Below are positions 31,895 to 53,880 of a stretch of DNA of 64,000 bases, one piece after another; positions within the stretch are counted from its first letter, which is position 1; each line of letters opens with the position of its first letter. Both the position numbers and the translations under genes were made by a program. The stretch is from Acidobacteriaceae bacterium KBS 83. GTDB lineage: Bacteria > Acidobacteriota > Terriglobia > Terriglobales > Acidobacteriaceae. A model generated the notes under the pieces. It was not told the origin of the DNA, searched no databases, and saw only the letters and a program-made list of their open reading frames with translations. The DNA lies in NCBI GenBank assembly GCA_000381585.1, contig KB906734.1, forward strand, positions 372,001 to 436,000, written 5' to 3'.

Positions 31895-31962
31895 GCGCCG
31901 CTCACTTCACCGATAAAAACAATCAAATTGTGCAGCGTTCATGGGATTAGTACGGTGTACTC

Positions 31963-32460
31963 ATGACTGCTCGCATACTTTCGCTCATCGCTACCGTGGC
32001 AATGGCTGTCTCTTCCATACATGCTCAAGTGGGCACCGCGAATCCGTTTGTCGGTAGTTGGAAACTTATCGCTGCGGATAAGCTCCTCCCAGACGGCACT
32101 CGCATCCCCGACTATGGAGCTGAGCCACACGGTATGGTCATCTTTACCGCCGACGGCCATTTCATGATTGACGTATTTCGGGATGTGCGCACAAAATTTG
32201 TCAGCAAAGACCGGGAAAAGGGCACCTTCGAGGAATACAAAGAAGCGCAACTGAGTTCTAGTTGTGCCTTCGGAACCTATTCCGTCGACACCGCCACCGG
32301 CAAGTTCACCATCCATATCGACCGCAGCACCTATCCGAACAACGACGGCACGACACAGGTCCGCGACTACGAACTCAAGGGCGACACTTTGAGCTGGCGC
32401 GTCATTCCTCGTCCCGACGGCTCCATCCCCATTACCGTGGTGCGCCGCATCGCTCAGTAG
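31963..32460 (+). CDS. Lipocalin-like domain exported protein
   Basis: 165 residues. Signal peptide ARILSLIATVAMAVSSIHAQ, then NPFVGSWKLIAADKLLPDGT, the typical start of lipocalin-like (DUF4488/lipocalin_5) domains. It contains HGMVIFTADGHFMIDVFRD and CAFGTYSVDTATGKFTIHI, alternating beta strands. It probably binds a small hydrophobic ligand in the periplasm, but no ligand can be named. 68 bp after the LysR gene; could be co-transcribed. Confidence 0.85.
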   Translation: MTARILSLIATVAMAVSSIHAQVGTANPFVGSWKLIAADKLLPDGTRIPDYGAEPHGMVIFTADGHFMIDVFRDVRTKFVSKDREKGTFEEYKEAQLSSSCAFGTYSVDTATGKFTIHIDRSTYPNNDGTTQVRDYELKGDTLSWRVIPRPDGSIPITVVRRIAQ

Positions 32461-32507
32461 AGAACAAGAATGACACCTACGCGTCGCCAACGCGCTCATC
32501 GACACCG

Positions 32508-32566
32508 GATTGGTACCGACATGTCGGCTCCTCGTCATCTATGCGCTTCTAACTGCGCGGCCCGTT
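32508..32566 (+). repeat. Left copy of a ~60-bp direct repeat
   Basis: GTCGGCTCCTCGTCATCTAT then GCGCTTCTAACTGCGCGGCC and CGTT (32523-32566) match 34984-35027 with one mismatch over 44 bp. Weaker similarity extends about 15 bp to the left. The right copy contains the last codons and stop of the TetR gene; here they are not attached to a gene. Confidence 0.8.
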
Positions 32567-34778: not shown

Positions 34779-34968
34779 CTCCCAGTCCTCCCAGCGCAAA
34801 TCCGGTGGGTGCCCCCAATGAATGCGGATGAACGCCGATGGAAAACACTGTAGGTCATCCACATTCATGGGAGTTCATCTGCGGCTCTAGCTGATTTTTT
34901 CACGTCTTCCGGCCCCTTGCGATCCTATCCATCATCTCGGACAAGTGCCGGCTAAGGCATGCTTGGGG

Positions 34969-35027
34969 GATCAGTACTGATAAGTCGGCTTCTCGTCATC
35001 TATGCGCTTCTAACTGCGCGGCCCGTT
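34969..35027 (+). repeat. Right copy of a ~60-bp direct repeat
   Basis: Matches 32508-32566 (see left copy). On the minus strand it encodes the last residues of the TetR protein (GRAVRSA and stop) and the start of its 3' flank. The two copies flank the acyltransferase and greB genes at about 2.46 kb. Confidence 0.8.
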
Positions 35028-35665
35028 TTCGATTCCGTGAGTACAGGGGTCAGGTAGCGGAGAACGGCATTGCGCATCGCCTGCTGCAGGCGCTGACGGG
35101 CGTGAGGCGAGGCGACGGCCAGCTCGTCGAGGATTCCGCGGAAGATCATAAGGGCTACCTGCCCATGATGGACCGCTTCAGAGCGAGAGAGAGTGGGTAG
35201 CTCTCGTCGGAGGCGGGCCGCGATGAAGTCGACGAAAACCTGCCCAAGAACCCGCTTGTCTTCGCGCGCGGCAGGTGAGAGCGGTGCGTTGACCACGAGG
35301 GTGTGAAACTCGGGACGCTTCCGGTTGAACCTCATGCACACATCGATCAGTTCACCGACGGCTTCTGTGAAGTCCAATACGCCTTCGGAGTCGATTGCGC
35401 GTTCTACCTCGGCCATTTCGCGCGCGTACATCGAGGCGAGCGCGCTGGCGATGGCTTCTTTATTGGGGAAAAACTGGTAAAGAGTAGCCGGAGATACGCC
35501 CGCTTCCGTGGCGATCGCGTTTGTGGTGGTCTCGTGGTAACCAAGACGACCGAAAACTGCGGCAGCGGCGCGGAGGAGAGCCTGCTGGCGCTGCTCGCCA
35601 CGCGCGTTACGCTTGCGGTTTGGATCAAAGACGCTCACGGGAGGATTCTCGCAGAAAGGAATCAT
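35000..35665 (-). CDS. TetR/AcrR family transcriptional regulator
   Basis: 221 residues. Helix-turn-helix: RQQALLRAAAAVFGRLGYHE, then TTTNAIATEAGVSPATLYQF and FPNKEAIA, the classic TetR DNA-binding region. The C-terminal helices form the ligand domain (EVERAIDSEGVLDFTEAVGE). Start 35665 is chosen because a palindrome begins two bases upstream; the frame is open far upstream but that is antisense to the NmrA gene. It is divergent from the NmrA-like gene and probably represses both promoters. The C-terminus lies in the direct repeat at 34984-35027, so its native end may have been altered. Confidence 0.93.
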   Translation of the reverse strand: MIPFCENPPVSVFDPNRKRNARGEQRQQALLRAAAAVFGRLGYHETTTNAIATEAGVSPATLYQFFPNKEAIASALASMYAREMAEVERAIDSEGVLDFTEAVGELIDVCMRFNRKRPEFHTLVVNAPLSPAAREDKRVLGQVFVDFIAARLRRELPTLSRSEAVHHGQVALMIFRGILDELAVASPHARQRLQQAMRNAVLRYLTPVLTESKTGRAVRSA

Positions 35666-35666
35666 A

Positions 35667-35710
35667 TAAGTAAAAACTTGCATCCCTTTTAGAACACAAG
35701 TATCTACTTG
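35667..35710. promoter_or_regulatory. Twin operator-like palindromes between TetR and NmrA genes
   Basis: Two related 14-bp palindromic sites: TAAGTAAAAACTTG (35667-35680) and CAAGTATCTACTTG (35697-35710), sharing 11 of 14 bases. They start 30 bp apart, about three helical turns. The second is a perfect 6-2-6 inverted repeat. They cover the TetR start and end just before the NmrA ribosome-binding site, where a TetR dimer would block both promoters. Confidence 0.75.
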
Positions 35711-35728
35711 CATAGGGAGGTGAACGAC

Positions 35729-36598
35729 ATGTTCACAGTGATGGGAATTACGGGCAAAGTTGGCGGGGCAGTCGCGGAGAATCTGCTTGCTGCGGGTAAA
35801 ACGGTGCGGGGCGTGGTGCGCGATTCGGGGAAGGCGAAAGCCTGGGCTGATCGTGGTGTGGAACTGGTGCAATCCGCATATGACGACGCGGCGGGACTCG
35901 CCAAGGCGTTCTCGGGGGCAGAGGGTGTGTTCGCGATGATTCCACCGGACTTTGCGCCGGCTCCCGGGCTGCCGGACCAGAAGCGTACGATTGCGGCGAT
36001 CCGTGAGGCGCTGGAGCAGGCGAATCCTGGCAAGGCTGTGTTTCTTTCGTCTATCGGTTCGGAGCAACCGAGCGGGCTGGGGCTGATCACGTCGACCCAC
36101 CTGATGGAAGAGGCGATGCGCACGCTGCCGATCCCTGTGGCGTACCTGCGCGCGGGCAGTTTCATGGAGAACTGGCTGGGAGCGTTGGACCACATCCGTG
36201 CGACGGGTGAGATGCCGTTCTTCTATGCGCCGCTTGATCGCAAATTCCCGCTGGTCGCCACGCGAGACATCGGCCTGGCGGGCGCCAAGGTATTGCAGGA
36301 GACCTGGACGGGGGAGCGTGTGCTGGAGGTAGACGGACCTGAGGGTGGAACCGATTTGCACGCAACGGCGGCCGCGTTCGGCAGGGCGCTGGGCCGTGAG
36401 GTGAAGGCCGTGCAATTACCTGAGGCTGCCTGGCAGAACGTTTTGGAAACCATGGGTACGCCAGCTGATCGGACCGGGCTCTATATCGAAATGGTGAAGA
36501 GCTTCAACTCGGGCTGGATCCACTTCGGTAATTCGGGAACAGAGAAGTTCCATGGGCCGACGACGATCGAGGCGTTCGCACAGCAGCTGGTCAAGTAA
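35729..36598 (+). CDS. NmrA-like/SDR NAD(P)-binding protein
   Basis: 289 residues. MFTVMGITGKVGGAVAENLL holds the Rossmann glycine motif of atypical short-chain dehydrogenases. VFLSSIGSEQPSGLGLITST and AYLRAGSFMENWL follow, typical of NmrA-family and NAD(P)H-dependent quinone or azoreductase-like proteins. ATG 35729 follows GGGAGGTG. Divergent from, and probably repressed by, the TetR regulator at 35665. A strong terminator follows at 36638. Substrate unknown; NmrA proteins may be redox sensors or reductases. Confidence 0.92.
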   Translation: MFTVMGITGKVGGAVAENLLAAGKTVRGVVRDSGKAKAWADRGVELVQSAYDDAAGLAKAFSGAEGVFAMIPPDFAPAPGLPDQKRTIAAIREALEQANPGKAVFLSSIGSEQPSGLGLITSTHLMEEAMRTLPIPVAYLRAGSFMENWLGALDHIRATGEMPFFYAPLDRKFPLVATRDIGLAGAKVLQETWTGERVLEVDGPEGGTDLHATAAAFGRALGREVKAVQLPEAAWQNVLETMGTPADRTGLYIEMVKSFNSGWIHFGNSGTEKFHGPTTIEAFAQQLVK

Positions 36599-36637
36599 GG
36601 AGAACGGGCGCAGGGACTCTTCGATGCAATAAATTCG

Positions 36638-36670
36638 GCATCTCGGAAGCGGCGTCAGCTTCCGAGATGC
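36638..36670 (+). terminator. 13-bp terminator hairpin after the NmrA gene
   Basis: GCATCTCGGAAGC, loop GGCGTCA, GCTTCCGAGATGC, followed by GCGTTTCTCG. It lies 40 bp after the stop. Stem perfect; U-tract short. Confidence 0.85.
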
Positions 36671-36750
36671 GCGTTTCTCGTGACGGATCATCGGCCTCCG
36701 TCGTTCGACCCCAAATGCGATACCCTTCCGCAGGGAGAACCAGAACGAAG

Positions 36751-37695
36751 ATGATCGTAGACCGCCGGCGATTCTTGCAACTAGGCTCCAGTACGGCAGC
36801 AATCAGTCTGATTCCTTCAACCTTCGCCGAGACAACCCAGCGGCCGCCGATCATTGACGTACATCTCCACGCGTATCCTTCCGACGCGCCAATCCCCGCC
36901 GTAAAGAATCCCGCTACCGGGAAGACGGTACAGCTCAAGGACGGAGCCGCTCACAGGGCAGCCTGCCTTGCTGAAATGAAACGCCTGAATATCGTTAAAG
37001 CAGTCGTGAGTGGAGGAGATGGTGACCGCCTCGCCGCCGCGACAGCCTGGTACGACGCGGATCCGGGAAGAATCATTCCCGGGGCCGGCATACGCGGCTC
37101 TGAAGATACGCCGCTGCCCGACCTGAGTGTGCTCCGTAGCGACTTCACGAGTGGACGCATGCGTGTCTTAGGCGAAGTCACTACGCAATATGCCGGCCTC
37201 ACCCTGGACGACCCGAAATACGCTGCTTATCTGGCCCTTGCTGAAGAATTGGATATACCGGTCGCTTTGCACACGGGAACGATGCCGCCCGGAATGTCGT
37301 TCGATCCATGCTGCCGTACAGCTCGCGCTCGCCTTGGGAACCCCGGACTTGTGGAAGAGGCTCTCAACCGCTATCCGAAACTCAGACTGAATCTCATGCA
37401 CGCCGGCTGGCCGTATCTCGACGACACGCTCTCTATTCTTTTCCACTATCCGCAAGTCAACGCGGACTTGGGCGCGATCGACTGGCTGCTTCCACGAGCG
37501 GAGTTTCACGCCTACCTGAACTCACTCATGCGGGCTGGGTTCGGCAAGCGCTTGATGTTCGGCACCGATCAGATGTACTGGCCTGAAGGAATCGCGATGG
37601 CCGTGGATGGGGTGAATTCTGCGTCATTCCTTAGTCATGGGGAGAAACGGGACATCTTTTATTCGAACGCGGCTCGCTTCTATAAGTTGGGCTAG
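36751..37695 (+). CDS. Exported amidohydrolase-family protein (amidohydrolase_2 type)
   Basis: 314 residues. The N-terminus DRRRFLQLGSSTAAISLIPS has a twin-arginine signal. The TIM-barrel has PPIIDVHLHAYPSDAPIP (HxH metal ligands), VALHTGTMPPGM, LNLMHAGWPYLDD and MFGTDQMYWPEG (Asp ligand). This branch hydrolyses or decarboxylates small carboxylated aromatics or lactones; the substrate here is unknown. ATG 36751 with upstream GGGAGAAC is preferred over 36667. The Tat signal implies folded, metal-loaded export. Confidence 0.88.
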   Translation: MIVDRRRFLQLGSSTAAISLIPSTFAETTQRPPIIDVHLHAYPSDAPIPAVKNPATGKTVQLKDGAAHRAACLAEMKRLNIVKAVVSGGDGDRLAAATAWYDADPGRIIPGAGIRGSEDTPLPDLSVLRSDFTSGRMRVLGEVTTQYAGLTLDDPKYAAYLALAEELDIPVALHTGTMPPGMSFDPCCRTARARLGNPGLVEEALNRYPKLRLNLMHAGWPYLDDTLSILFHYPQVNADLGAIDWLLPRAEFHAYLNSLMRAGFGKRLMFGTDQMYWPEGIAMAVDGVNSASFLSHGEKRDIFYSNAARFYKLG

Positions 37696-37947
37696 GGGAT
37701 TTAGATCGACCGTTCGACGGTCCGTTTCGGATTTCTTCCGGATGGTCGACCAACCGGCTGGAATGCCCTGGGCGCTCAGTTAAGGAATCAATGAGCGCAT
37801 CGGCCTGTTAGCAACAGTTGTCAATAGATTCCGCATTTTTCCGTTCTAGCACTGCGTTCTGGGACGCAAACAGTCGCTGGATGCAGTGTCCGTTTGCGGG
37901 TCAACTCGCGATTGTGGCCGAACCCCCTAGACTCCAAAACAGACACC

Positions 37948-37976
37948 TTGACCTTCTACACGTTCGAGTGTATGTG
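37948..37976 (+). promoter_or_regulatory. Promoter-like boxes and operator-like palindrome before the PadR gene
   Basis: TTGACC (37948-37953) and TATGTG (37971-37976) are separated by 17 bp. The spacer contains TACAC-GTTCGA-GTGTA, a 5-6-5 inverted repeat that overlaps the -10 box, where a PadR dimer could bind and autorepress. The start codon is 15 bp downstream. Confidence 0.6.
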
Positions 37977-37990
37977 TAGAAGCCATAGGC

Positions 37991-38341
37991 ATGAAGACGG
38001 AAGACAGATTCGATCTCCCGCAGGGTACCCTCGATCTACTCATCATGAGGGTGGTTGCGCTTGGCCCCATTCACGGTTACGCCATCGCGCAAAGGATTCA
38101 GCAGATGTCTCGCGAGGCCTTGCAGGTCCAACAGGGATCCCTTTATCCCGCTCTCCATCGCCTCGAATACAAAAAGCTGCTGACTTCCAACTGGCAACCG
38201 TCCGAGACGGGCCGTGAAGCCAAGTTCTATGAGCTCACTGCCAAAGGTCGAGCGCATCTCAGGGCGGAGACCGAAAATTGGAAGCGCCTCACCGACGTGG
38301 TCGGGCTCATTCTTAAGGGAACGCTGGAGGGAATTTCATGA
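37991..38341 (+). CDS. PadR family transcriptional regulator
   Basis: 116 residues. LPQGTLDLLIMRVVALGPIH, GYAIAQRIQQMSREALQVQQ and GSLYPALHRLEYKKLL form the winged helix-turn-helix of PadR proteins; the C-terminal helix mediates dimerisation. It overlaps the ADOP permease gene by ATGA, a coupling very common in acidobacteria. Likely represses its own operon through the TACAC/GTGTA site upstream. The inducing ligand is unknown. Confidence 0.96.
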   Translation: MKTEDRFDLPQGTLDLLIMRVVALGPIHGYAIAQRIQQMSREALQVQQGSLYPALHRLEYKKLLTSNWQPSETGREAKFYELTAKGRAHLRAETENWKRLTDVVGLILKGTLEGIS

Positions 38342-41067
38342 GCTGGCTGCAGAGACTCTTCGCACGCAGGCGCATGGAGCGCGATCTGGACAAGGAAATC
38401 CGGTTTCACGTCGAATCGCAGGTCGCCGATAAGGTACGATCCGGCATTTCCGAAATCGAAGCCCGTCGGCTGACGCGTCTGGAGTTCGGTGGCACTGAAC
38501 AGATCAAAGAGGATTGCCGGGAGAGTCGAGGCACTTTGTGGTTTGAATCGCTAGTTCAGGATGTCCGATACGGTCTGCGACAACTTCGAAAATCGCCCGG
38601 CTTCGCCTTTATCGCCATCCTCTCCCTGACGCTGGGCATCGGCGCCAACACTGCCATCTTCACGCTGCTCAACGCGATCCTGCTGCGCCCGCTTCCGGTC
38701 CAGAATCCCAGTGAGTTGCTTCTATTCGGGGACGGCCAGGCGCAGGGCAGCACCAGCTCAATTCCCGACGGGAGCACGAGGCTATTCTCCTATTCCCTCT
38801 TTCACGATTTTCGCCAGAAGGATACTTCGTTTTCAGGAATCGCCGCGGTAGACAGCAGCCAGTTTGCGACCAAAGCTTCGATTGGCGGGGCAGCTTATCA
38901 AACGACCCACGTCGATCTTGTCTCCGGCAGTTACTTCTCCGTGCTTGGTGTACCGGCATTTCTGGGCCGTACGATTGGCGAATCCGACGATGGCGCCGAC
39001 GGCGCAGGTCCGGTCGCCGTAGCCAGTTACTCCTGGTTCCAGCGGCAATTCAATGGCGACCCATCCGCGCTTGGTAAAACCATCCGCATCCAGTCACACG
39101 ACTACACGCTGGTCGGCGTTGCCCGGCCGGGCTTCTACGGATACACGGTGGACCAATCGACCGACCTGTGGATTCCGCTTTCGATGGAGAAGGCGTTCTC
39201 TCGTCCGGGCTGGAACGGACTCGGGGATAAATTCTTTCAGTCGCTCTATCTGATCGGCCGTCTGAAACCCGGCGTGACCGCAACCCAAGCGAGCGCCGAA
39301 ACCAATCTGCTGTTCAAGCAGATTCTCCGCAGCTACCTCGGGTCTCAACCTCCGCAAAAGCATCTCGATGATATTGCACACGCCAGTATCCAACTGAATC
39401 CAGGAGGCCGTGGAGTCTCTTACCTGCGTTACGCGTTCTCGGTGCCGCTGGAAATTCTCATGGCCATTGTGGCGCTGGTGCTGCTGATTGCCTGCGCGAA
39501 TATCGCGAACATGCTTCTGGCCCGCGGCGTAGCGCGGACGCGTGAAGTCGCGGTGCGCATGGCACTGGGCGCATCGCATCGCAGGATTGTGTTGCAACTT
39601 CTCACGGAGTCTCTATTGCTTGCTTTTCTGGGAGCGGCGGCCGGTGTTGCGCTGGCATGGAAGGCGAGTGTTGTGCTGCTGAGCATGGCCACGCCCGGCC
39701 CCGATCCAGTTCCGTTGAATCTGACCCCCGACATGGCCGTGCTCGGCTTTACGCTAGGGGCCGCGTTGGTAACGGCGCTTCTGTTCGGCATGCTGCCGGC
39801 GTTCCGGGCGGCGGGGCTTGAGTTCACACCTGCACTCAAGGACGGGCGCGGCAGTTCTTCTTCCACAACGCGCGGCGCGCTGGCCCGATCGCTTATCGTC
39901 GGACAGATTGCGCTTTCTGTCGTGCTGCTGGTTGTCGCCGGGTTGTTCGTGCGCAGCCTCATAAACCTCTCGGACGTTGAGACCGGTTTCGACAAGCACA
40001 ACGTCCTCGTGTTTTCTCTCGACTCAAGCACGGCCAATCTGCCGCATGGAACTCCGGAAGAGATACGCTCTGTCCAGTTACAGGAGCAGATCGAAGACCG
40101 TGTGCAGAACCTCCCAGGCGTAAAAGCGGATGGCTTTGCCTTCTTCACTTTCAATCAAGGCGCATGGACCGACGAAGTTCTCTTCCTGGGCATCCCGCGG
40201 ACGCAGTCAAACGGCGGCGAGGTCTCCTTCAACATTACCGGCAAGGGATATTTCACCACGATGGGCATTCAGCTGGTCGCGGGCCGTCTCTTCAACGCTC
40301 AGGATACGCAGATGTCAAATAAAGTCGCGGTCATCAACGAAACCATGGCGCGTCGCTTCTTTCCGAATGGTTCGGCGATCGGACGCCGCTTTGGAATCGG
40401 AGAGACCCCGGATCATCCTGGCGAGAAGGAAGTGATCGGCGTGGTCAAAGATGCCAAGTACAGCTCACTCACCGAAGGCACGCTGATGGCCGCCTATTTC
40501 CCCTGCACGCAAAATCCCGGCTTCTACGGGAACTTTGCGGTTCGCTATGCTCCCGGGGCAAACCGGCAGGAAATCGTCTCGCGAACGCGCCGCGCCATCG
40601 CTGAGATCAACTCCAACATTCTGGTCAACAACGTTGGCAGTCTGGAAGAGCAGGTGGACGGTTCCATTGCGACGCAGTCGCTGGTTGCCCGGCTTTCGAG
40701 TTTCTTTGGAATCATAGCTGTTTTTCTCGGCTGCATCGGCATCTACGGTGTGCTTTCGTATTCGGTAGCCCGCCGTACGAGTGAGTTTGGCGTCCGTCTC
40801 GCCCTCGGGGCACGATCTCACATGTTGCTTTGGATGATCCTTCGAGAATGCATTCTGCTGTTGGCTCTCGGACTTGCTATCGGTGTGCCGGTCGCCTTGA
40901 GTTCAACACGCATTCTCAAGAGCTTGCTCTACGAGTTAAGTCCGCTCGACCCCACGGCTATCTCCATCGCAATTGCCGCCGTTTCTGTAATGACCATCGC
41001 CGCCGCGTGGTTACCCGCAAGGCGCGCCACCAAAATCGACCCGATGCAAGCCTTGCGCACCGAATAG
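38338..41067 (+). CDS. ADOP family FtsX/MacB-like permease
   Basis: 909 residues. N-terminal ADOP prefix (MERDLDKEIRFHVESQVADK). The two-half architecture has TM1 (FAFIAILSLTLGIGANTAIF) followed by a periplasmic MacB-like domain, an FtsX block (about 370-480: MAIVALVLLIACANIANMLL), a second TM and periplasmic domain, and a last FtsX block (GCIGIYGVLSYSVARRTSEF). Such proteins form an acidobacterial branch of type VII ABC permeases; no ATPase subunit is encoded here. Translationally coupled to PadR. Suggested role in drug or peptide efflux or envelope stress; not shown. Confidence 0.95.
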   Translation: MSWLQRLFARRRMERDLDKEIRFHVESQVADKVRSGISEIEARRLTRLEFGGTEQIKEDCRESRGTLWFESLVQDVRYGLRQLRKSPGFAFIAILSLTLGIGANTAIFTLLNAILLRPLPVQNPSELLLFGDGQAQGSTSSIPDGSTRLFSYSLFHDFRQKDTSFSGIAAVDSSQFATKASIGGAAYQTTHVDLVSGSYFSVLGVPAFLGRTIGESDDGADGAGPVAVASYSWFQRQFNGDPSALGKTIRIQSHDYTLVGVARPGFYGYTVDQSTDLWIPLSMEKAFSRPGWNGLGDKFFQSLYLIGRLKPGVTATQASAETNLLFKQILRSYLGSQPPQKHLDDIAHASIQLNPGGRGVSYLRYAFSVPLEILMAIVALVLLIACANIANMLLARGVARTREVAVRMALGASHRRIVLQLLTESLLLAFLGAAAGVALAWKASVVLLSMATPGPDPVPLNLTPDMAVLGFTLGAALVTALLFGMLPAFRAAGLEFTPALKDGRGSSSSTTRGALARSLIVGQIALSVVLLVVAGLFVRSLINLSDVETGFDKHNVLVFSLDSSTANLPHGTPEEIRSVQLQEQIEDRVQNLPGVKADGFAFFTFNQGAWTDEVLFLGIPRTQSNGGEVSFNITGKGYFTTMGIQLVAGRLFNAQDTQMSNKVAVINETMARRFFPNGSAIGRRFGIGETPDHPGEKEVIGVVKDAKYSSLTEGTLMAAYFPCTQNPGFYGNFAVRYAPGANRQEIVSRTRRAIAEINSNILVNNVGSLEEQVDGSIATQSLVARLSSFFGIIAVFLGCIGIYGVLSYSVARRTSEFGVRLALGARSHMLLWMILRECILLLALGLAIGVPVALSSTRILKSLLYELSPLDPTAISIAIAAVSVMTIAAAWLPARRATKIDPMQALRTE

Positions 41068-41111
41068 CCGGAGAAACACGTGCTGGCCAACCGGCGCGTC
41101 TTCCTGGCTGG

Positions 41112-41281
41112 CTAATGCTTAGCTTGCCGCACAAACTCCACCCGGCGATTGTTCGCCTTGTCCGCTGGAGAATCGTTCGGGCGCAGTGGCTTCGTGTCGC
41201 ATACCCCTTGGTCGTCAGCCGGCTCGCATTTACACCCATCGACACGAGTTGCGCCTTCATCGCATCGGCGCGCTGCTGCGA
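41112..41281 (-). pseudogene. Fragment of an OmpA-family protein (C-terminal peptidoglycan-binding domain)
   Basis: On the minus strand the reading is LSQQRADAMKAQLVSMGVNA, SRLTTKGY, then, after restoring one deleted base near 41202, DTKPLRPNDSPADKANNRRV and EFVRQAKH before a stop. This is the end of an OmpA_C domain (LSxxRAxxVxxxLxxxG, RLxxxGYGxxxP, NRRVEF). Nothing upstream of LSQQ remains; the fragment ends at the junction with the DUF3857 fragment. Intact OmpA genes were not seen in the window. Confidence 0.8.
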
Positions 41282-41395
41282 CAGCTCGGCGCTTCACTAT
41301 ACCCGCGAGTACACCGCAAAGCAGTTGGAACTCGACGCTCCCGCTACTTCGACCTCCGCAAATTCACCGAGCGCGTCGCCTACGACGAAGCCACC
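41276..41395 (+). pseudogene. Fragment of a DUF3857/transglutaminase gene 3' end
   Basis: About 115 bp closely similar to 29599-29711, the last codons of the intact DUF3857 protein: GGCGCTTCACTATACCCGCG, then a shared segment encoding RKFTERVAYDEAT. One base is missing relative to the source (CTCCCGCTAC after GACG), so the frame changes. It is inserted between an OmpA fragment and a molybdopterin-oxidoreductase fragment that both read the other way. An imperfect inverted repeat (GGCGAGCCGCTGC / GGCAGTGGCTCGCC) sits at its right junction. Confidence 0.85.
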
Positions 41396-41885
41396 GGCGA
41401 GCCGCTGCTCCGGGGCAGTGGCTCGCCGTTGATTTCGTAGCAGAGCAGGTTGTTGCTATTGAGCGCTTCATCGATAGACATGCTGCGGGCAAACTGCTCA
41501 GTGATCGTGAGATCGAGTCCGCCTTCGGAATCGGGCTCGCCCACTCCCGTCTTGCCGCTACTGACGATCCCCGAGTTGTCGCGGATTGCCACCTTCCCGC
41601 TATCAGATCCGTAGAAGACCACTTCGGTGCCCTGTTCCAGGACACCCACCTCCTCTAACAGCGGGGACAGCTGCGCTCCGCCCCAGCGCGCATTACCGAC
41701 GAGTGGTGAGAGGACCCCAGCCCCGGGATCCTCATCATTCCCCCGACTTCCTGGCGCGCACGGACCTTGAGGTCACTCAACGTCAGGGATTGCAGCCGTG
41801 CAACCAGCCCCTGATATCTACGCGCCACGTGGAAGGATCGGCATTTTGAAATATTCCGTAGTGGGTAACGTAAAAGTTGTGGACC
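41380..41885 (-). pseudogene. Decayed molybdopterin-dependent (sulfite oxidase-like) oxidoreductase, central part
   Basis: In minus-strand order: HNFYVTHYGIFQNADPSTWR, then (frame change near 41822) SLTLSDLKVRARQEV, then GNARWGGAQLSPLLEEVGVL, EQGTEVVFYGSDSGKVAIRD, ITEQFARSMSIDEALNSNNL and LCYEINGEPLP. These match the order of the Mo-cofactor domain of sulfite oxidase/SorA-like enzymes (FF-x-H-G, DPxTW, WxGxxL, VVFxGxDxG, FARSxxxxxAL, LLxYEMNGEPLP). At least one frameshift and the loss of the C-terminal dimerisation domain show it is non-functional. A Tat-signal fragment that could be its N-terminus lies at 43364, beyond the intact beta-helix gene. Confidence 0.8.
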
Positions 41886-41985
41886 TTCAGGCTCATTCTT
41901 CGATTACAGAGACCTGGTAGCAGCGAGACCCTCAACATGGGCGTACCCGCTGGGCCGTTTCCTACGACTGCTGAACCTTGCAAAC

Positions 41986-43155
41986 TCAGTGCTCGGATTT
42001 CCCCCCTCGGCATAGCCGGGCGGGAGTAGATGTGTCACACGTGTTGAAAACGAAGCGGTTGCCCGAGCCCAAGCCGTCATAGACCAGGTCGAAAGGCTGG
42101 TTGTCAAGTACATCGTTATTCACGATGATGTTGTGCTCCGCCACATCTCCGTAGAATCCCGGGAATAAGGAGACGTTGGCCGTGGAGACGACGACGATAC
42201 CTCCGGCCAGCGGGACGTCATTGATGAGACTGGGCTCACCACCCGGGTGGTTCGTGAGCACCCTGTTCGCCCGAAGCACGATGTGGTCGCCGCCGCCGAT
42301 CAGGATACCCACTCCGGTTAGCGAAAACGGCAGCTCTTCTGCCGAGCAGAATTTGTCGTTGTGCACCACGATATTGTGGGAGGCCCGCCAATTATGCACG
42401 CCGGTAGTCGTGCCCGTGTTCAGGAAGACCAGACCCGAGCAACTGTCGTGCAGCAGGTTGTCCCTCACACTGCCCGTGGACGCATCCCGCACGAGGATCC
42501 CCCATAGGTCGGCAAAAGCCGTGTTGTATCGGATCTTGAAATCGGCGTTTGGTGAATTGCCCACGTAGAAGCCGGCGTCACCGCTGCCGTAGCTCGTGTT
42601 GTACTCAAAGAGGCCGTGTGTAGAGAGGAAGGCAGTGATGCCGTAGCTCTTGTTGTTCGCCGCCACATTGTGGTCCGCGCGGGCCTCGTTAGTGCCACCG
42701 AAGAGGATGCCAACTCCCGAGAAATCCCGTACCGTGAAGCCCGTCACGCGCACATCGTTTACTGTCCGAAGCACCTTACCCTGGGGGTCGAGGTCAGCGA
42801 CACAAATGCCATTGAGGCCGAAGTTCTCACCGCCAATAGGCGGGATCTGTAAAACAGGGCAGAACGGCCTTGGTTGGGCTGGCGGTTCAAGGACCGTATT
42901 CTCGGGTCCTGCGCCCTTTAAGGTGATGCCATCCTTGTTGATGAGCAGGTTCTCCTGGTAGTTGCCCGGACCGACACACACCGTCGCGCCGGTCGCCGCG
43001 CTATCAATCGCGTTTTGAATGGAATGCCCGGCCACCACCTGAACGGTGCACGCCGGGTCCGGTGCCGCTCGTCCGATCCCGGTGAAGACGAGAACGATGA
43101 GACCTCCCGCAAAAAGAGCGGACGTATGCATCGCTGATACGGAAATCCGAACCAT
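41986..43155 (-). CDS. Exported right-handed parallel beta-helix protein (NosD-like)
   Basis: 389 residues, signal peptide ending TGIGRAAPDP. Begins ACTVQVVAGHSIQNAIDSAA, TGATVCVGPGNYQENLLINK, the usual start of NosD/pectate-lyase-like beta-helices. It continues with repeated NxI/VxxN turns: NVAANNKSYGITAF, NLLHDSCSGLVFLN, HNIIVNNDVLDNQPFDLVYD. Such proteins bind or cleave polysaccharides, but no catalytic residues can be assigned. AAGGAGGG precedes the ATG. The gene is intact yet lies between fragments of a molybdopterin oxidoreductase on the same strand (41380-41885 and 43185-43364). Confidence 0.88.
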   Translation of the reverse strand: MVRISVSAMHTSALFAGGLIVLVFTGIGRAAPDPACTVQVVAGHSIQNAIDSAATGATVCVGPGNYQENLLINKDGITLKGAGPENTVLEPPAQPRPFCPVLQIPPIGGENFGLNGICVADLDPQGKVLRTVNDVRVTGFTVRDFSGVGILFGGTNEARADHNVAANNKSYGITAFLSTHGLFEYNTSYGSGDAGFYVGNSPNADFKIRYNTAFADLWGILVRDASTGSVRDNLLHDSCSGLVFLNTGTTTGVHNWRASHNIVVHNDKFCSAEELPFSLTGVGILIGGGDHIVLRANRVLTNHPGGEPSLINDVPLAGGIVVVSTANVSLFPGFYGDVAEHNIIVNNDVLDNQPFDLVYDGLGSGNRFVFNTCDTSTPARLCRGGKSEH

Positions 43156-43184
43156 GATTATCCCTCCTTTCAGTCTTTCTTTAC

Positions 43185-43364
43185 TTAATTCGAGCTGTGC
43201 TTGTCAGGTTGACCATGCCGGGGTGCGGCACAGCGAGTGATGAAAGGGCATCGTTGGGGGATAGGCTCGTCCCTTTGTATAGGTACGGACTCCACCGTCA
43301 ACTCCGCCAACGCCGCGCCGCCTCCTTTCAACAAGGTGCGCCGAGAAAGATCTTGATTTTCCAT
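43185..43364 (-). pseudogene. Tat-signal N-terminal fragment, probably of the decayed molybdopterin oxidoreductase
   Basis: A 59-codon frame starting MENQDLSRRTLLKGGGAALA with GGAGAAC before the ATG. The SRRTLLKGxGAALAxLTV form is typical of sulfite oxidase-like periplasmic molybdoenzymes. Similarity ends after about 35 residues (RDEPIP), and the frame runs into non-matching sequence and stops. No oxidoreductase follows directly; the next matching part is at 41885, across the beta-helix gene. It could also be translated as a useless short peptide. Confidence 0.6.
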
Positions 43365-43651
43365 GGGGTAGTTCTCCTTCCCACAATTCGCGAAAGCGCA
43401 AGTGCTTATGCCAAGGCTCTCGTTTCGTAAAAGTCGTATTGTTCGGGTGGTTGGCCTTCGATGTTGCGACGGAATGGTATACAGCCCGTCGGGCCGGGAC
43501 GAACTGGGCAAGTTCGTCGAGACAGCTCTCCCAATTTCCGCAGAACGCGTAAGGAGCGCAATGCACCAGCGGTTGTCTGGAGGTTAATTTGCGGGTTGAC
43601 AGCTAAGCTGTTGCTGAACAATACTGGCCACCCTTTTGGCGTGGGTGGACC

Positions 43652-44926
43652 TTGGTAGAGTTAGCCCAATGCTGCAACGGAGCAGTCAATGGCTACCGTT
43701 TCGGTCGCTTTGAGGTTGACGTGCGCACCGGGGAGCTGCGCCGAGACGGCAGCCGCCTGAAACTCCAGGACAAGCCCTTTCAACTCCTGATCGCCCTCTT
43801 GGAGCGTCCGGGCGAACTGGTGACGCATGAAGAACTCAAGCGGCGGCTCTGGCCCGCGGACACATTTGTAGACTTCGCCCTGGGGTTGAAGGTCGCCGTC
43901 AAGAAGCTGCGGGATGCGCTGGGGGACCATGCTGGTACTCCCCGGTATGTAGAGAACCTGCCACGGCGGGGATACCGGTTCATGGTGCCAGTGGAACCGG
44001 TTAACCACACGGTAACTCGCCTTACGGCAGGAGAAAACGACGCTCAGACGCATGAGCTGGCGCAGCCAATGGCCAAAGCTAGGCGCGAGGCTGGAGTAGG
44101 CGGGGCGCAAGGTGACTCAACAGCCACGTCCGCACGGTCCCTGCAGTGGCGAGTGACTGCCATTGCTGCCTCTGTGCTCCTTATCGCAGCAGTGACGATA
44201 GGGGTGGTGGAACACCTTCGTCCAACCCAGCCGGCTGCCACTCAGCCAGGCAGTCTCGCGGTCCTGCCATTTACGGTAATCGGCAACAGTGGGCAAAGCG
44301 AACACCTCGGCCTTGGATTGGCTGACGCCCTCATCATCCGCCTTGGACGGTCGAAACGGTTCGCCGTCCGGCCAACCAGCGCGGTCCGTGGCTTCAGCGC
44401 ATCCAAGCCGGACGTCGTCGCTGCCGGCCGCCGGCTCGGCGTCGAGAACATTCTGGACGGCCATATCCAGCGTTCCGCTGACCGGGCTCGCGTAACTGTG
44501 CAGTTGGTCCGTGTCGCCGACGGCTTCGCTCTTTGGACCGAGCAGTTCGACGAGAAATTTACGGATATTTTGGGCTTCCAGGACTCCATCGCAGTCCGCG
44601 TCGTCAGCGCGCTCTGCCAGCCGCTTTCCGAAGATCAGATCCACAGCATGGCGCGCCAATCAACTGTCAATGCTGACGCCTACGAGGCATTCCTGAAAGG
44701 ACGTTTTTTCTGGAACAAGCGTACTGAGGACGGCTGCACCCGCGCGATCGAGCACTTCCAACGTGCTATCCAGTTGGATCCGAACTTCGGGGCCGCCTAC
44801 GCAGGTTTGGCCGACGCCTACGCGCTGCTTGGCTCCATGGCTGATAAAACCATTCCGCACAGCCAGGCCATGTCAGCAGCGCACCGGGACTTTACGTGCC
44901 AGAATTCGATCGAGCCGAACCACTGA
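43652..44926 (+). CDS. CadC-like winged-helix regulator with truncated TPR domain
   Basis: 424 residues. N-terminal OmpR/PhoB-type winged helix: GYRFGRFEVDVRTGELRRDG, LQDKPFQLLIALLERPGELV, GLKVAVKKLRDALGD, VENLPRRGYRFMVPV. One membrane segment follows (VTAIAASVLLIAAVTIGVVE). The periplasmic part has LAVLPFTVIGNSGQSEHLGL (adenylate-cyclase-associated TolB-like block) and one TPR (AIEHFQRAIQLDPNFGAAYA). Relatives carry several more TPRs and reach about 600-750 residues; here similarity stops after ADAYALLGSMADK and the frame ends 25 codons later. TTG start. It may still bind DNA. Confidence 0.8.
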   Translation: MVELAQCCNGAVNGYRFGRFEVDVRTGELRRDGSRLKLQDKPFQLLIALLERPGELVTHEELKRRLWPADTFVDFALGLKVAVKKLRDALGDHAGTPRYVENLPRRGYRFMVPVEPVNHTVTRLTAGENDAQTHELAQPMAKARREAGVGGAQGDSTATSARSLQWRVTAIAASVLLIAAVTIGVVEHLRPTQPAATQPGSLAVLPFTVIGNSGQSEHLGLGLADALIIRLGRSKRFAVRPTSAVRGFSASKPDVVAAGRRLGVENILDGHIQRSADRARVTVQLVRVADGFALWTEQFDEKFTDILGFQDSIAVRVVSALCQPLSEDQIHSMARQSTVNADAYEAFLKGRFFWNKRTEDGCTRAIEHFQRAIQLDPNFGAAYAGLADAYALLGSMADKTIPHSQAMSAAHRDFTCQNSIEPNH

Positions 44927-45266
44927 CTCGCTGGCATCGTCCGGTCCCGCTCCGGGAACAACCAGCAGAAACCTGCCAGTTAATTCCCATCCATTCGCTA
45001 CACTGGAAATAGGGAGTCAGTGCAGCAGCATCAATAGCCACCATCTCCGTTTCATTTCCTGATCGTCGGGTAGAACACTGCTCTCGACGCAGCTTTTCCG
45101 TCAAGAAAAAGCTGCTCATAATTGCAGCCCGGCGAACCCACGTAAGGAAATGGAACGGTCGCGGTGGCTTTTCTCATGCCGTAATTACTTCTATCGATCG
45201 CATCTCGACCGGACCCGTTTCGCGCAAAGCGAGACCAGGCGAAATGAGAGGCTGCTTTGACCACGC

Positions 45267-45320
45267 TAACTCCTTTATCAGGACATATTTACGCGTAAGT
45301 CCTTTGGAAAGACATATTTA
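45267..45320 (+). repeat. Tandem 29-bp element, TAAGTCCTTT type (copy A)
   Basis: Two 29-bp units: TAACTCCTTT-(5)-GACATATTTA-(4) then TAAGTCCTTT-(5)-GACATATTTA-(4). Both blocks repeat exactly 29 bp apart. A second element of the same type is at about 58017-58057. Confidence 0.75.
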
Positions 45321-45373
45321 ATGCTCGGAAGACCTCATATCCTCGTGATTCGGCTGATGTTGTACCGTGCCCT

Positions 45374-45404
45374 CCCGCACCGGAGGGGGGAGGGGGGGTG
45401 CGGG
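45374..45404. repeat. G-rich hairpin downstream of tandem element A
   Basis: CCCGCACC and GGTGCGGG pair around a loop of GGAGGGGGGAGGGGG. A similar G-rich structure follows the second tandem element at about 58120-58156. Could form a quadruplex or a terminator-like stem. Confidence 0.5.
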
Positions 45405-45784
45405 TAACGTGACCTCGCCGAAGCACGAGCTTGAACGACAGCTCCGCTCACTCCGCCGTCTAAGCATGTCGGATCTCCTGGCAGCCCTCGCCTTCCAGCA
45501 TCACTCGCCGGAGAGAGCAGCCGCACTGCTCAACACCGCTGGCTCCATCGCGCTCACTCCGGAGCAGTTCATCTGCGCCCGCACGAGAATCCGGACACGC
45601 GCAGCCCACCCGATCCAGCGTGAACGACCAGTCGCCCGCTTAGTTCAACGTGAGCGGCCAAAGGGAGCGAAGCCCACCGAACACGCCGGAGGCGCCGTTA
45701 CCTGGATGGCAGATCCCGCCGCAGGCGCTTCTGCCTGGAGGACGGATCCCTCGGTACAATCAGGGCAGGAAAGCGTCCAACAGA

Positions 45785-46495
45785 ATGTTCATGCGACCAG
45801 CCTCCGCCCTCGCCTCTCTCGCTCTCGCCGCCACGTTGTTTCTACCCGGTGCTCTCTCCGCCGCCTCCGCGCAGGAGACCACGCAGGTGCACAACACCGC
45901 TCCGCTCCATCCGCCGGCCGGTGCGCGCGTGGCCATCATCGAGTTCGGAGACCTGGAGTGTCCCGATTGCGCCCGCGCCAACTCACTGCTCAAGCAGGCA
46001 TCCGAGCAGTACAAGATTCCCTGGGTCCGCCACGACTTCCCGCTGCCCCAGCATGACTGGAGCTTTCAGGCCGCCGTCAACGCGCGCTGGTTCGACACCA
46101 AGAGCAAGAAGCTCGGCGATGAGTACCGCGATGCCGTCTTCGCCCACCAGAATGAAATCACCGTCATCAGCAGCGAAGGCACCTACGACGGCAGCAAAGG
46201 CCTGCCCAACCTGCACGCCTTCACCGAGAAGTTTGCCGCCGAGCACAACGTCGCTATGCCGTTCGTGATCGATCCCCAGGGCAAGCTCGCCGCGCTGGTG
46301 AAAGCGGACTATGCGCTCGGCCAGAGCATCGGCATCCAGCACACACCCACCATCTGGGTCGTCACCAATTCCACGAGGGGCACCCCCTTCGTCGAGGTGG
46401 TCGATCGCACCAAGCTCTACTCGATGATTGATGATGCCCTTGCGGAGACCAAAGGCAGCGCACCGGAGCACGCCGCCGCGCACCACGGACGATAG
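45785..46495 (+). CDS. DsbA-like thioredoxin-fold exported protein
   Basis: About 236 residues, signal peptide ASLALAATLFLPGALSAASA. Thioredoxin fold: ARVAIIEFGDLECPDCARAN carries the CPDC redox motif, then VRHDFPLPQHDWSFQAAVNA, and GIQHTPTIWVVTN holds the cis-proline. Likely oxidises or isomerises periplasmic disulfides. Two close ATGs (45785, 45791) are possible starts. It ends in a His-rich tail (EHAAAHHGR). No DsbB homologue is visible nearby. Confidence 0.9.
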   Translation: MFMRPASALASLALAATLFLPGALSAASAQETTQVHNTAPLHPPAGARVAIIEFGDLECPDCARANSLLKQASEQYKIPWVRHDFPLPQHDWSFQAAVNARWFDTKSKKLGDEYRDAVFAHQNEITVISSEGTYDGSKGLPNLHAFTEKFAAEHNVAMPFVIDPQGKLAALVKADYALGQSIGIQHTPTIWVVTNSTRGTPFVEVVDRTKLYSMIDDALAETKGSAPEHAAAHHGR

Positions 46496-46589
46496 CTGTC
46501 GCAACGGCCATCTCCCGGCCGCAAGCCAAACATCGCGGGCATGAACAATTTTGGACAGTTTGGAGCGCTGATTGCACATTGCTCCGTTC

Positions 46590-47516
46590 ATGCCCCCGGT
46601 ACCCTGTGGAGAAGGTAAAAAGTCGTCAACCCAGGCGTCTTCCGGGCAAAATCTTGTCTCCGAGCAGGTCCATGACAAGCTGACGTCCTGGAGTGTTCTG
46701 AGTTCCAGCGGTGCTCGCTGGGCATCTCTCACGGCGGATATCTACGACTTCAGGACCTCCGACACGCCAGAGCTTCGATCCGCCGATCCGGGCATTGCCC
46801 TCCATCTTTCCTCGCCCACGCTGATCGATCTGACTCTTGATGGATACCGGGATACCCGAGTTCGCGTTGAGGGCGACCTTTCAGTTTTCTCCGCCGGCTC
46901 GCGCCGCCAGATGCAATCAAAAAGACCTCACAAAGTTCTCGTGATAACGCTGCATCGCGAGGTAGTGTTGCGTGCCATCTACGAGATGAAAGCCGCCCAC
47001 GCATTCGAGTTAGGTGGCCTCCCGTTTCTGAGAGATGCACAGATAGAACACATCTGTCACGCGGTCCTGGCCGAGATGGATTGCGACTATGCGTCAGGAC
47101 CGCTCTATGGTGATTCTCTTTCACTCGCCTTGTGCTCACGGTTGCTTCGTTGTGTATCCTCGCTCGATCCGGGCTCAGGTCGCCGCGGCGGGATCGCACC
47201 ACATACCCTTGATCGCGTCATGGAATACATCGACTCAAATTTGACCGAACCGCTTCGAATGGAAGAACTGGCTGAGATTGCCGGTCTCAGTGAGTACCGC
47301 TTCGCGCATAACTTCAAGACGGCGACGGGTATCTCGCCGCATCAGTATGTAATCAACCAACGAATAGAGCGCGCCAAGCGAATACTCCGCGAGACCGACC
47401 TTTCGGTGATTGAGACTGCTTACTCAGTCGGCTGCCAGAGCCTGAGTCGCTTTAACTCATTATTTCGGAGGCAGATCGGCGCTACACCAAGCGCTTATCG
47501 ATCTTCCTTTCGCTGA
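46590..47516 (+). CDS. AraC family transcriptional regulator
   Basis: About 308 residues. The C-terminal 100 residues hold two helix-turn-helix motifs: EPLRMEELAEIAGLSEYRFA, HNFKTATGISPHQYVINQRI and SVIETAYSVGCQSLSRFNSL followed by FRRQIGATPSAYR. The N-terminal domain (about 200 residues) is unassigned and presumably binds an effector. The start is uncertain: ATG 46590 is used, with a TTG at 46572 in frame. Target genes unknown; the peroxidase gene downstream is the nearest candidate. Confidence 0.92.
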   Translation: MPPVPCGEGKKSSTQASSGQNLVSEQVHDKLTSWSVLSSSGARWASLTADIYDFRTSDTPELRSADPGIALHLSSPTLIDLTLDGYRDTRVRVEGDLSVFSAGSRRQMQSKRPHKVLVITLHREVVLRAIYEMKAAHAFELGGLPFLRDAQIEHICHAVLAEMDCDYASGPLYGDSLSLALCSRLLRCVSSLDPGSGRRGGIAPHTLDRVMEYIDSNLTEPLRMEELAEIAGLSEYRFAHNFKTATGISPHQYVINQRIERAKRILRETDLSVIETAYSVGCQSLSRFNSLFRRQIGATPSAYRSSFR

Positions 47517-47648
47517 GTTATTCGCGTAGCCACAGCGCGACCTTAACAGTTAGTGGCAAGAATGTCTCATCCCCGGCAAGAACAGGGAGGACATCAAGAT
47601 ACCCACCCGAGATACTTAGCAACCAAAAAAATCTCCCTGGAGGTGTGA

Positions 47649-49310
47649 ATGAGAATCCATTTCTCGCTCCCCACAGTATCCGTATGCCTTTTTGTTGCTA
47701 TCTCAGCGCAACACACTCTCAGGGCCCAGAATCATAATGCGGATGTGACGCTTCTGGAAAACATCAGACCCATTGGTGGGTCTGGCAATAACCTCGTTCG
47801 TCCCTATCTCAATCCCGTACCCGGGAGTGCCGAGATAAACCTGGCCCCATTAGATTTCGCCCCTCATACAAGAAACGGCCTGATAACAGGCTCTAATCCG
47901 AGAGAAATCAGCAATGTCATTGCCGGAGGAACCGGTGCGAAAGGACAAAATGCGGATACGGAAGATCCCATCGAGTCCGCATGGTTATATGTCTTTGGCC
48001 AATTTGTGGACCATGATCTGGATCTTGAGTCCACACCCGCGAGTAGTCCGGCAATCAATATCACCGTTCCGCCCGACGACCCGTTTTTCCCGCCGAATAC
48101 CACCATCGGCATGACCAGAGATGCGCGAAGCAGGCGCACGAACACGATCATCAATACGGTTGCGGGTTATCTCGACTTGTCACAGGTATACGGTTCCACT
48201 CAATCAGTAGCCGATAGCCTCCGCAACCCTGATGGATCAATGATGACTTCCGATTCGGGTCAGGCACTGCCTGTGGCGAATGGTGTTTTCGTGGCGGGAG
48301 ATCCCAGGGTGATGGAAAATCCTGAGCTGACGGCGGTCGATGTCCTGTTCGTGAGAGAACACAACTGGTGGGTTGCGGCCTTAAGCCACGAACATCCAGA
48401 TTGGAACGGACAGCAACTCTATGACATGGCGAAGGCGATAACAACTGCTGAATATCAGAACATCATCTACAAGGAATTTCTGCCGGTATTGATTGGCAAT
48501 GCGATAAGGCCTTACAGAGGCTACAATCCAGCGGTCGCGGCGCAAGTGACCCAGGAATTCTCAACCGCAGCGTTCCGTCTTGGCCATTCTCAAGTTTCTG
48601 ATGAACAGACGGGCCTTGATAACGCCGGAAACGTCACGTTTGTGGAGTCCTTAGCGCAGTCGTTCTTTAATACTCCTGCAATTGATGAAGCGAATGGCTT
48701 CGATCCTCTGCTGCGGGGCGTTAGTGCCGATAATGCTGAGGCAACCGACGTCTATACAGTCGCGACGTTACGTAACCTGCTTTTCGCTCCATTGGTCGGC
48801 GGCGACATAGACCAAATGGACCTCATTGCGATTGATATCCAAAGAGAGAGAGATGTGGGTCTTGGCACGTTAAACGAGACTAGACAGGCACTCGGACTTT
48901 TCCCGTATTCCTCATTTGCTCAAGTCACGAAAGATCCGATTCTGCAGGGCGATCTGCAGACGGTCTACGGGACCGTCGGCAATCTTGACTTGTTCATCGG
49001 CGGCCTCGCAGAAGACCACGTCTTGGGAACTGACGTCGGACCAACCTTCCGGGCAATTATTGCCAAACAATTTGCGGCGCTGCGGGACGGAGACCGGTTC
49101 TTCTGGTTGAATCAGGGATTCGATAGACAGACGAGTAGCTTGATCTCGAACGCGACGCTTGCGACACTCATACTCCGAAATACAGATACCACCGCGCTCC
49201 AGGCAAAGGTATTTTTGCCTCCTGCCGTCTCCACCCACAGCAAACCGCCGGCACCACAGCTCCAGGTTGATACTCATGGACGCCGAGGCGTTCCATTTGT
49301 AAATCCCTAG
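47649..49310 (+). CDS. Exported animal-type haem peroxidase (peroxidase superfamily)
   Basis: 553 residues, signal peptide ending SAQHTLRAQN. GQFVDHDLDLES holds the distal His (about 122). VDVLFVREHNWWVAAL contains the active-site Arg, and TAAFRLGHSQVSDEQTG the proximal His. GTLNETRQALGLFPYSSFAQ and GPTFRAIIAKQFAALRDGDR, FFWLN complete the family pattern. Bacterial members are peroxidocinerin/cyclooxygenase-like enzymes that use H2O2 to oxidise halides or organic substrates. GGAGGTG precedes the ATG. Base composition is lower in GC than neighbours, a possible sign of transfer. Confidence 0.93.
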   Translation: MRIHFSLPTVSVCLFVAISAQHTLRAQNHNADVTLLENIRPIGGSGNNLVRPYLNPVPGSAEINLAPLDFAPHTRNGLITGSNPREISNVIAGGTGAKGQNADTEDPIESAWLYVFGQFVDHDLDLESTPASSPAINITVPPDDPFFPPNTTIGMTRDARSRRTNTIINTVAGYLDLSQVYGSTQSVADSLRNPDGSMMTSDSGQALPVANGVFVAGDPRVMENPELTAVDVLFVREHNWWVAALSHEHPDWNGQQLYDMAKAITTAEYQNIIYKEFLPVLIGNAIRPYRGYNPAVAAQVTQEFSTAAFRLGHSQVSDEQTGLDNAGNVTFVESLAQSFFNTPAIDEANGFDPLLRGVSADNAEATDVYTVATLRNLLFAPLVGGDIDQMDLIAIDIQRERDVGLGTLNETRQALGLFPYSSFAQVTKDPILQGDLQTVYGTVGNLDLFIGGLAEDHVLGTDVGPTFRAIIAKQFAALRDGDRFFWLNQGFDRQTSSLISNATLATLILRNTDTTALQAKVFLPPAVSTHSKPPAPQLQVDTHGRRGVPFVNP

Positions 49311-49527
49311 CTTGTCTTGTCATTCCGCGCGGGAGCACGTCCCCGTCCGCCACGCAAGATAGACAACATTTGACCTAGCCTCAGGCGCTTACAAAATGTG
49401 GACCCTCCGCATTTTGCAGGCGCCTCTGCATTTTGCGTTCCCGATTTTGCGTCGCTCAAGAGGAACTCTGCGCCTCGCGTTCGCGTAATCCTGCTTGTCC
49501 CCGAGGTGCCGCCCCAGAGGTGCAGTG

Positions 49528-51972: not shown

Positions 51973-51996
51973 GGAGACGTCGCCCGGACGGATCTG

Positions 51997-52497
51997 TTAG
52001 CGGGCCGAGGTGCGCTCCACTCGGATCGCCAGTTCCCCTGCATCTGCCTCGCCCTGCGCATACATCAGGTCGAAGATGTTGGCCGCCGTTTGCAACCACT
52101 TTTGGCGCGCTGGCAGCGTCCACTCCGTCGATGGCTCCGGTAGCTTCGAGAACAATCCTTGAATCAACGGGTCAGCGCCATCCGCGCTCTTCCGTAATGT
52201 CTGCTGTACCGCCTTCGCTGGCAGGTCAGGCTCGCGGTGGTGGCTCCGTTCCTGGCGCTGGTCCGAATTCCGATCGGCTTGCCTGCCGTTGGAATCCAGG
52301 CCGCGTTCCAGCCGGTCCTGCGTTCGCAGGTCGGCGGCATTTCGTTCGTCCGCACGAGCCACACTTCGATCCGAATTCCGATCATCATTGCGGTCCATGC
52401 GATTCAGATCGTCATACGGACTCCGCGCCGTACTATCCGGGTCCGGAGCGGTCTTGAAAGTCGGCATGACTGAGCGGTCGTTTCCGAAAAGAGCCAT
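51997..52497 (-). CDS. Protein of unknown function with Asp/Arg/Asn-rich linker
   Basis: 166 residues from ATG 52497 (a longer frame to 52587 exists). The middle (about 30-90) is low complexity, rich in Asp, Arg, Asn and Gln (NRMDRNDDRNSDRSVARADE), probably disordered. The C-terminal part (LFSKLPEPSTEWTLPARQKW, LQTAANIFDLMYAQ) is conserved-looking and resembles the end of small bacterial hypotheticals. No function assigned. Convergent with the ADOP permease, 24 bp away. Confidence 0.6.
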   Translation of the reverse strand: MALFGNDRSVMPTFKTAPDPDSTARSPYDDLNRMDRNDDRNSDRSVARADERNAADLRTQDRLERGLDSNGRQADRNSDQRQERSHHREPDLPAKAVQQTLRKSADGADPLIQGLFSKLPEPSTEWTLPARQKWLQTAANIFDLMYAQGEADAGELAIRVERTSAR

Positions 52498-52753
52498 ATT
52501 CCCGCAATCATGCAGAAATACAACTTCAGGCTCAATGGCACTCTTAGGTGATGGTCGACGACTGACCTTTAGCCAATTCGGTACCACGCCTCCGCCGCAA
52601 GTCAGCGCTTAAGCAAGTTATTCCTCTCTCTCGTCTATGCAACACAGCCGTTTCGAGTAACTGGAAACTCGCTATTCCGCTTGACGATACCCCTTGGCGC
52701 AGCCTACAGTCGGCTCACTCCAGCGCATCACACCACTTGGAAGGGGGCAAGCC

Positions 52754-52936: not shown

Positions 52937-53007
52937 AACTGAAGTGCAACCCCTCCCACCCTCGGGGAGTACCGCGTTTTGTGAGTCGCGGCTACCCTCG
53001 GAAGAAC

Positions 53008-53754: not shown

Positions 53755-53880
53755 CCGGCCCCACCACGGAAAACTTCAGTGTGTGTGGATGCTCTCTGGC
53801 CTCATCCGTCGATAGTTGCCGTCCTCCTCACATAAAATCCGGATGTTACAAGAGCCTCACGCTTCCACGGGAGATGGCAG

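Follow-up and report, generated by a model that had tools for sequence, protein, structure and literature searches.

An intact beta-helix gene within a broken enzyme gene

We found an intact gene for a beta-helix protein lying between the remains of a sulfite-oxidase-family gene, and we consider it probable that non-homologous recombination placed a duplicate of the beta-helix gene into the enzyme gene, or into its already dead remains, and that the host gene then decayed. The locus lies in the window, by which we mean the whole analyzed stretch of 64 kb (G000:C2:372001-436000), taken from a genome of 6.25 Mb in 21 contigs. An earlier note on this DNA had proposed an intact beta-helix gene within a dead gene of sulfite-oxidase type, and our comparisons confirmed this, as the enzyme fragments belong to the same protein and relatives carry the gene uninterrupted. 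The locus consists of the following features:

38338-41067, plus strand: MacB/FtsX-type permease, flanking the locus on one side
41130-41284, no strand assigned: region matched at the DNA level by another genome of the family (71% to G035:C1:1678462-1678617, E 1.4e-11)
41279-41399, plus strand: 121 bp copied from the 3' end of the transglutaminase-type gene 27723-29732 (87.7% to 29591-29712)
41392-41881, minus strand: middle remnant of the enzyme gene, about residues 95-261 of the G764 orthologue (tblastn with the G764 and G658 orthologues, PF00174)
41905-43182, minus strand: duplicated 1278-bp unit, composed of 27 bp with the ribosome-binding site, the beta-helix gene and 81 bp past the stop codon
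41986-43155, minus strand: intact beta-helix (NosD-like) gene, 389 aa (PF13229, PF05048, dN/dS)
43183-43283, minus strand: 101 bp separating the N-terminal remnant from the beta-helix unit (profile and DNA comparison)
43284-43364, minus strand: N-terminal remnant of twin-arginine type, residues ~1-26 of the sulfite-oxidase-family gene (64% over 25 aa to G764)
43652-44926, plus strand: winged-helix/TPR regulator, the divergent neighbor (PF00486)

In the order of transcription on the minus strand, the N-terminal remnant is followed by the 101 bp, the beta-helix unit and the middle enzyme remnant. The 121-bp copy, whose source sits 11.7 kb away, occupies the place of the lost enzyme C-terminus. 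Judged by eye, the stretch 41130-41284 may encode, on the minus strand, the C-terminus of an OmpA protein; the one ORF of this region checked against Pfam gave no match. An imperfect palindrome with 32-nt arms, 78% complementary, and no spacer lies where the enzyme remnant meets the transglutaminase fragment (41380-41443).

Origin and decay of the enzyme gene

Uninterrupted and open orthologues of the enzyme were present in G764 (434 aa) and G658 (411 aa; both lengths depend on the start codons chosen), and they share 64-65% identity with the larger remnant. In a search of the whole 64-kb window with the first 60 residues of the G764 orthologue, residues 2-26 matched 43358-43284 with 64% identity (E 2.7e-5), and the best match elsewhere had an E of 0.078. 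In the middle piece, 41872-41807 corresponds to G764 residues 95-117, 41810-41721 to residues 117-146 and 41700-41392 to residues 159-261 (66%, E 1e-43); compared with G658, the range 41881-41392 corresponds to residues 73-240. As the middle remnant is read in three frames, it must have acquired at least two frameshifts. The Mo-cofactor domain by which we tested for the sulfite oxidase family (PF00174) was found above its cut-off in this remnant, as two stretches in one profile search and as one in another. This domain had been placed at 41380-41885, which holds for its identity by both Pfam and orthologue matches, but the homology ends near 41392 and not at 41380. Similarly, of the N-terminus assigned to 43185-43364 the part 43284-43364 is recognizable, whereas 43183-43283 has no accepted enzyme match: its frameshift-tolerant profile score of 28.7 was equalled by 16 of 397 random segments, and DNA comparison was negative. 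On these two grounds we rejected the assignment of this part to enzyme residues ~251-284, which would have meant a scrambled gene order.

The enzyme pieces lie on the same strand and in the right order, as the earlier note had stated; in the comparison with G764 and G658 they are collinear and cover non-overlapping residues of the same orthologues. Both match one protein, the G764 orthologue, and not different ones, and by these alignments they share one origin. Between them 68 residues are missing by G764 (204 bp) or about 46 by G658 (about 138 bp), and the C-terminal two-fifths of the enzyme (G764 residues 262-434) are absent. The motif LECSG of the orthologue aligns to MRIPG in the remnant, so that an isoleucine stands at the position of the cysteine, which we take to be the catalytic one of sulfite oxidases. 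Having neither this cysteine nor one open frame, the copy is a pseudogene and no working member of the family. For the N-terminal remnant we compared 359 candidate twin-arginine-type N-termini, a pool that counts nested starts separately and is biased, as it consists of fetched loci, many of them chosen for this enzyme family, and 464 kb of the own genome. In this pool G764 had the top score (70), and the G658 N-terminus scored 46, level with a further sulfite-oxidase homologue.

No intact enzyme orthologue was found in the own genome, the remnant being the sole close match and the next one reaching 38%. Matches to an 89-aa middle piece were found at E <= 0.001 in 10 of 61 relatives (own genome included, the others weak) and in 37 of 396 phylum genomes (again with the own genome), and a longer form of 115 aa had matches in 83 of 399 class genomes, where G658 and G764 stand out with 64-65% identity; the three samples overlap. 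Comparing the G764 contig that carries the enzyme with window positions 36600-48000, we observed that the enzyme gene alone matches. G001 (85% complete), the only further genome of this genus that we searched, gave no close match to the enzyme or to the beta-helix gene. In the same genome (L089), about 220 bp separate the matches to 45259-46495 and 51998-55938, which means that about 5.5 kb (46496-51997), with a haem peroxidase gene of animal type (47649-49310) among them, are present in the window and absent from that place in G001.

The beta-helix gene and its copies

The reading frame 41986-43155 is open over 389 aa and AGGAGG precedes its start codon, the ribosome-binding site lying within the 27 bp before the start. 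The description of this gene as intact, NosD-like and provided with a good ribosome-binding site thus stands for the frame and the site, but the NosD cut-off was not reached (NCBIfam TIGR04247, 38.6 of 300 bits). The protein matches PF13229 (E 1e-13) and PF05048 (1.6e-10) and passes the Pfam Beta_helix gathering score (51.7 versus 25.9 bits); for TIGR03805 it stays under the NCBIfam cut-off as well (73.9 of 141.5 bits). It is probably secreted, and its hydrophobic N-terminus was taken by eye as an export signal. Structure prediction was of too low a quality to be informative (mean pLDDT 30.8), and a comparison with solved structures yielded no significant match (best E 0.076). In base composition the gene is like its surroundings (GC 0.590 versus 0.607, sd 0.032, 245 genes). 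A simple promoter scan of this strand found no site, which is weak evidence since the scan is limited in promoter types.

We observed three copies of the gene in the genome. Those on contigs C5 and C1 are 92% and 76% identical to the window copy in amino acids, and 92% and 84% in DNA. The limits of the unit follow from aligning window 41905-43182 with G000:C5:2535-3817 (92% nt), where the similarity stops abruptly at both ends. Past one unit end the enzyme match resumes after 23 bp, or after 11 bp with some adjoining codons added by eye, and 101 bp separate the other end from the N-terminal enzyme sequence. The C1 copy has the 3' tail past the stop codon in common with the window unit, without the shared 5' end. 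For the window and C5 copies we calculated a dN/dS of 0.30 (dS 0.16), and pairwise values among four close copies ranged from 0.30 to 0.42, which would fit purifying selection. In other genomes the gene is rare: 5 of 60 other relatives showed only weak partial matches, and the 398 other genomes among the 399 class genomes had no match at E <= 1e-10. Three copies here and none at this threshold there argue for insertion. A contig scan revealed one close relative (77%) in G776, a Bryobacteraceae genome, and one distant relative (25%) in an actinobacterial genome. The own genome is probably acidobacterial, as the nearest named relative of the beta-helix gene is this Bryobacteraceae one and the adjoining permease is of a type typical of acidobacteria. 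No relative with the beta-helix gene beside an intact oxidoreductase was seen, as G776 has the sole close copy found outside this genome and its best match to the enzyme reaches 35%.

Regarding the surroundings of the copies, the C5 copy has upstream of it a gene fragment with a frameshift, from a local gene family, and downstream a vanadium-haloperoxidase fragment (L027 3843-4000, 2173-2568), the latter covering positions 37-130 of 177 in PF22778. The Bryobacteraceae copy (L031) is preceded by an ORF that matches part of a Y_Y_Y domain (positions 25-64 of 65). Nothing unusual is apparent around the C1 copy, which has a divergent regulator and, by eye, a downstream hairpin resembling a terminator. 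An association of the copies with gene wreckage is suggestive, the cases being few. The window regulator (43652-44926) matches residues 5-454 of the 676-aa regulator beside C1, the window version being shorter, and in the sequence compared the two are reciprocal best matches (33-34% aa); two other regulators in 464 kb have 30-35% identity, but with shorter matching parts or lower scores. It is possible that beta-helix gene and regulator form a shared ancestral neighborhood in which the former is the old resident, although the regulator pair is far less similar than the window and C1 beta-helix pair (76%).

Tests for a mobile element

The ends of the window unit show a 5-nt direct repeat, which 493 of 1000 random pairs equalled, and an inverted score equalled by 873 of 1000; for the C5 unit the corresponding numbers were 918 and 476 of 1000. 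The unit contained no transposase: its long ORF is the beta-helix gene, and none of the three further ORFs of 80 aa or more had a Pfam match. We therefore rejected a transposon or insertion sequence, there being no repeat ends beyond chance and no transposase in the unit. A 17-nt inverted repeat at both ends of the beta-helix reading frame (41986-42002 and 43141-43157, 14/17) is probably due to chance, since only 10/17 positions pair in the C5 and C1 copies.

The 3' tail of the three copies did not fold in a consistently stable way (z 0.78, -2.17 and 0.10), and an integron gene cassette was dismissed because no consistent fold like that of attC motifs in their general form was seen there. A retrocopy was discarded, as the reverse transcriptase profile PF00078 had no match in the genome at E <= 0.001, and so was phage cargo, as no beta-helix relative was found in viral contigs or phage records. 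Distant beta-helix relatives with 26-31% identity were found on nine plasmid records.

Other copied pieces in the window

The earlier note had also suggested a common mechanism with a second locus at 13.9-15.9 kb. There, the end and the start of the 504-aa gene 15998-17512 recur as copies at 13865-14198 (89% nt) and 15664-15866 (74% nt), and the 417-aa gene embedded between these copied ends is itself related to the 504-aa gene (29% aa, E 2e-19). By these similarities the locus is a case of duplication and decay among neighboring paralogues, with no unrelated gene inserted. Since insert and host are relatives, a common mechanism with the locus at 41-43 kb is unsupported and we abandoned this part of the proposal.

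The 121-bp piece at 41279-41399 is also a copy of a distant gene end, which indicates that the copying of short pieces of genes does occur here. Similar pairs at E <= 1e-6 numbered 33 in 464 kb of this contig, with several at gene 3' ends; this is too small a number for judging a general excess. A 60-bp repeat (90% identical) was observed at 32507-32566 and 34968-35027, that is, at the start of ORF 31939-32538 and the 3' end of gene 35000-36415.

Proposed course of events and alternatives

For the events at the locus we infer the following order, type of recombination and promoter use. The beta-helix gene would have been copied as a unit of ~1.28 kb with its ribosome-binding site and no detected promoter, and this unit would have been inserted in the same orientation into the sulfite-oxidase-family gene by non-homologous (illegitimate) recombination, about 140-200 bp of target sequence being deleted. 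The insertion may have broken the enzyme gene, or the gene may already have been dead, and afterwards the C-terminal two-fifths would have been lost and frameshifts would have arisen in it. The beta-helix copy itself would have remained intact, perhaps being transcribed from the leftover promoter of the enzyme gene. As a kind of event this would be ordinary. Counting against it are the reciprocal-best regulators beside the C1 and window copies, the 101 bp without an accepted match at the 5' junction, and G001 and G764, which show no empty site.

An unlikely but not negligible alternative is that several rearrangements assembled a patchwork of debris around an older resident beta-helix gene, with gene conversion keeping the copies similar. 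The two further stretches of foreign origin that adjoin the enzyme remnant would agree with this, as would the shortened adjacent regulator and its relative next to the C1 copy; however, collinear, same-strand and non-overlapping enzyme pieces directly flank the unit, for which one insertion is simpler. We give considerably less credit to an undescribed mobile promoterless unit (ribosome-binding site, ORF and conserved 3' tail) that repeatedly lands in genes, breaks them and uses their transcription. It would explain the abrupt ends, the 3' tail past the stop codon common to C1, the position of the window and C5 copies among broken genes and that of the Bryobacteraceae copy after a partial Y_Y_Y domain, but there are three copies only, direct and terminal inverted repeats are no longer than in random pairs, the 3' tail has no consistently stable fold and C1 does not share the 5' end.

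The enzyme pieces themselves might derive from two separate genes of Tat or molybdopterin proteins and stand around the beta-helix gene by chance, given that the N-terminal piece has just 25 recognizable residues and lies beside 101 bp without an accepted match. We regard this as very improbable, because the top-scoring N-terminus is that of G764, whose orthologue also matches the middle piece. An assembly chimera, to which several similar copies could have misled the assembly, is hardly credible with copies just 92% and 84% identical in DNA and a contig of 933 kb.

If the insertion took place as proposed, the locus would be a clearly bounded case, comparable with intact relatives, in which a bacterium, probably an acidobacterium, lost an enzyme gene and the duplicate of an unrelated one took over its place, its orientation and perhaps its promoter. 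Should the same unit be shown to have inserted independently elsewhere, this would hint at an unrecognized way of moving single genes. By their titles, papers on gene duplication in the acidobacterium Solibacter (PMC3174227) and on mobile DNA and pseudogenes (PMC4369082) are near in topic.

Comparison with known systems

With sulfite oxidases of the SorA/SUOX type (PF00174; PDB 2blf and 1sox) the remnant shares a twin-arginine-type N-terminus and the Mo-cofactor domain. The G764 orthologue matches both 2blf and 1sox by sequence, and the remnant is 42-45% identical to a Rhizobium protein annotated as sulfite oxidase (‘sulfite oxidase’ on Rhizobium plasmids). Unlike these enzymes, the copy described here is frameshifted and split, and is without the C-terminal two-fifths and the LECSG cysteine. 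The beta-helix protein gives the same kind of profile matches as right-handed parallel beta-helix proteins (PF13229, PF05048 NosD, TIGR03805), but compared with NosD and TIGR03805 it falls below the NCBIfam cut-offs and few close copies were found. Pseudogenes formed through the insertion of another sequence are a known kind, and as in those the host gene lies in two collinear parts around the insert; the difference is that the insert here is a duplicated ordinary gene and not an insertion sequence.
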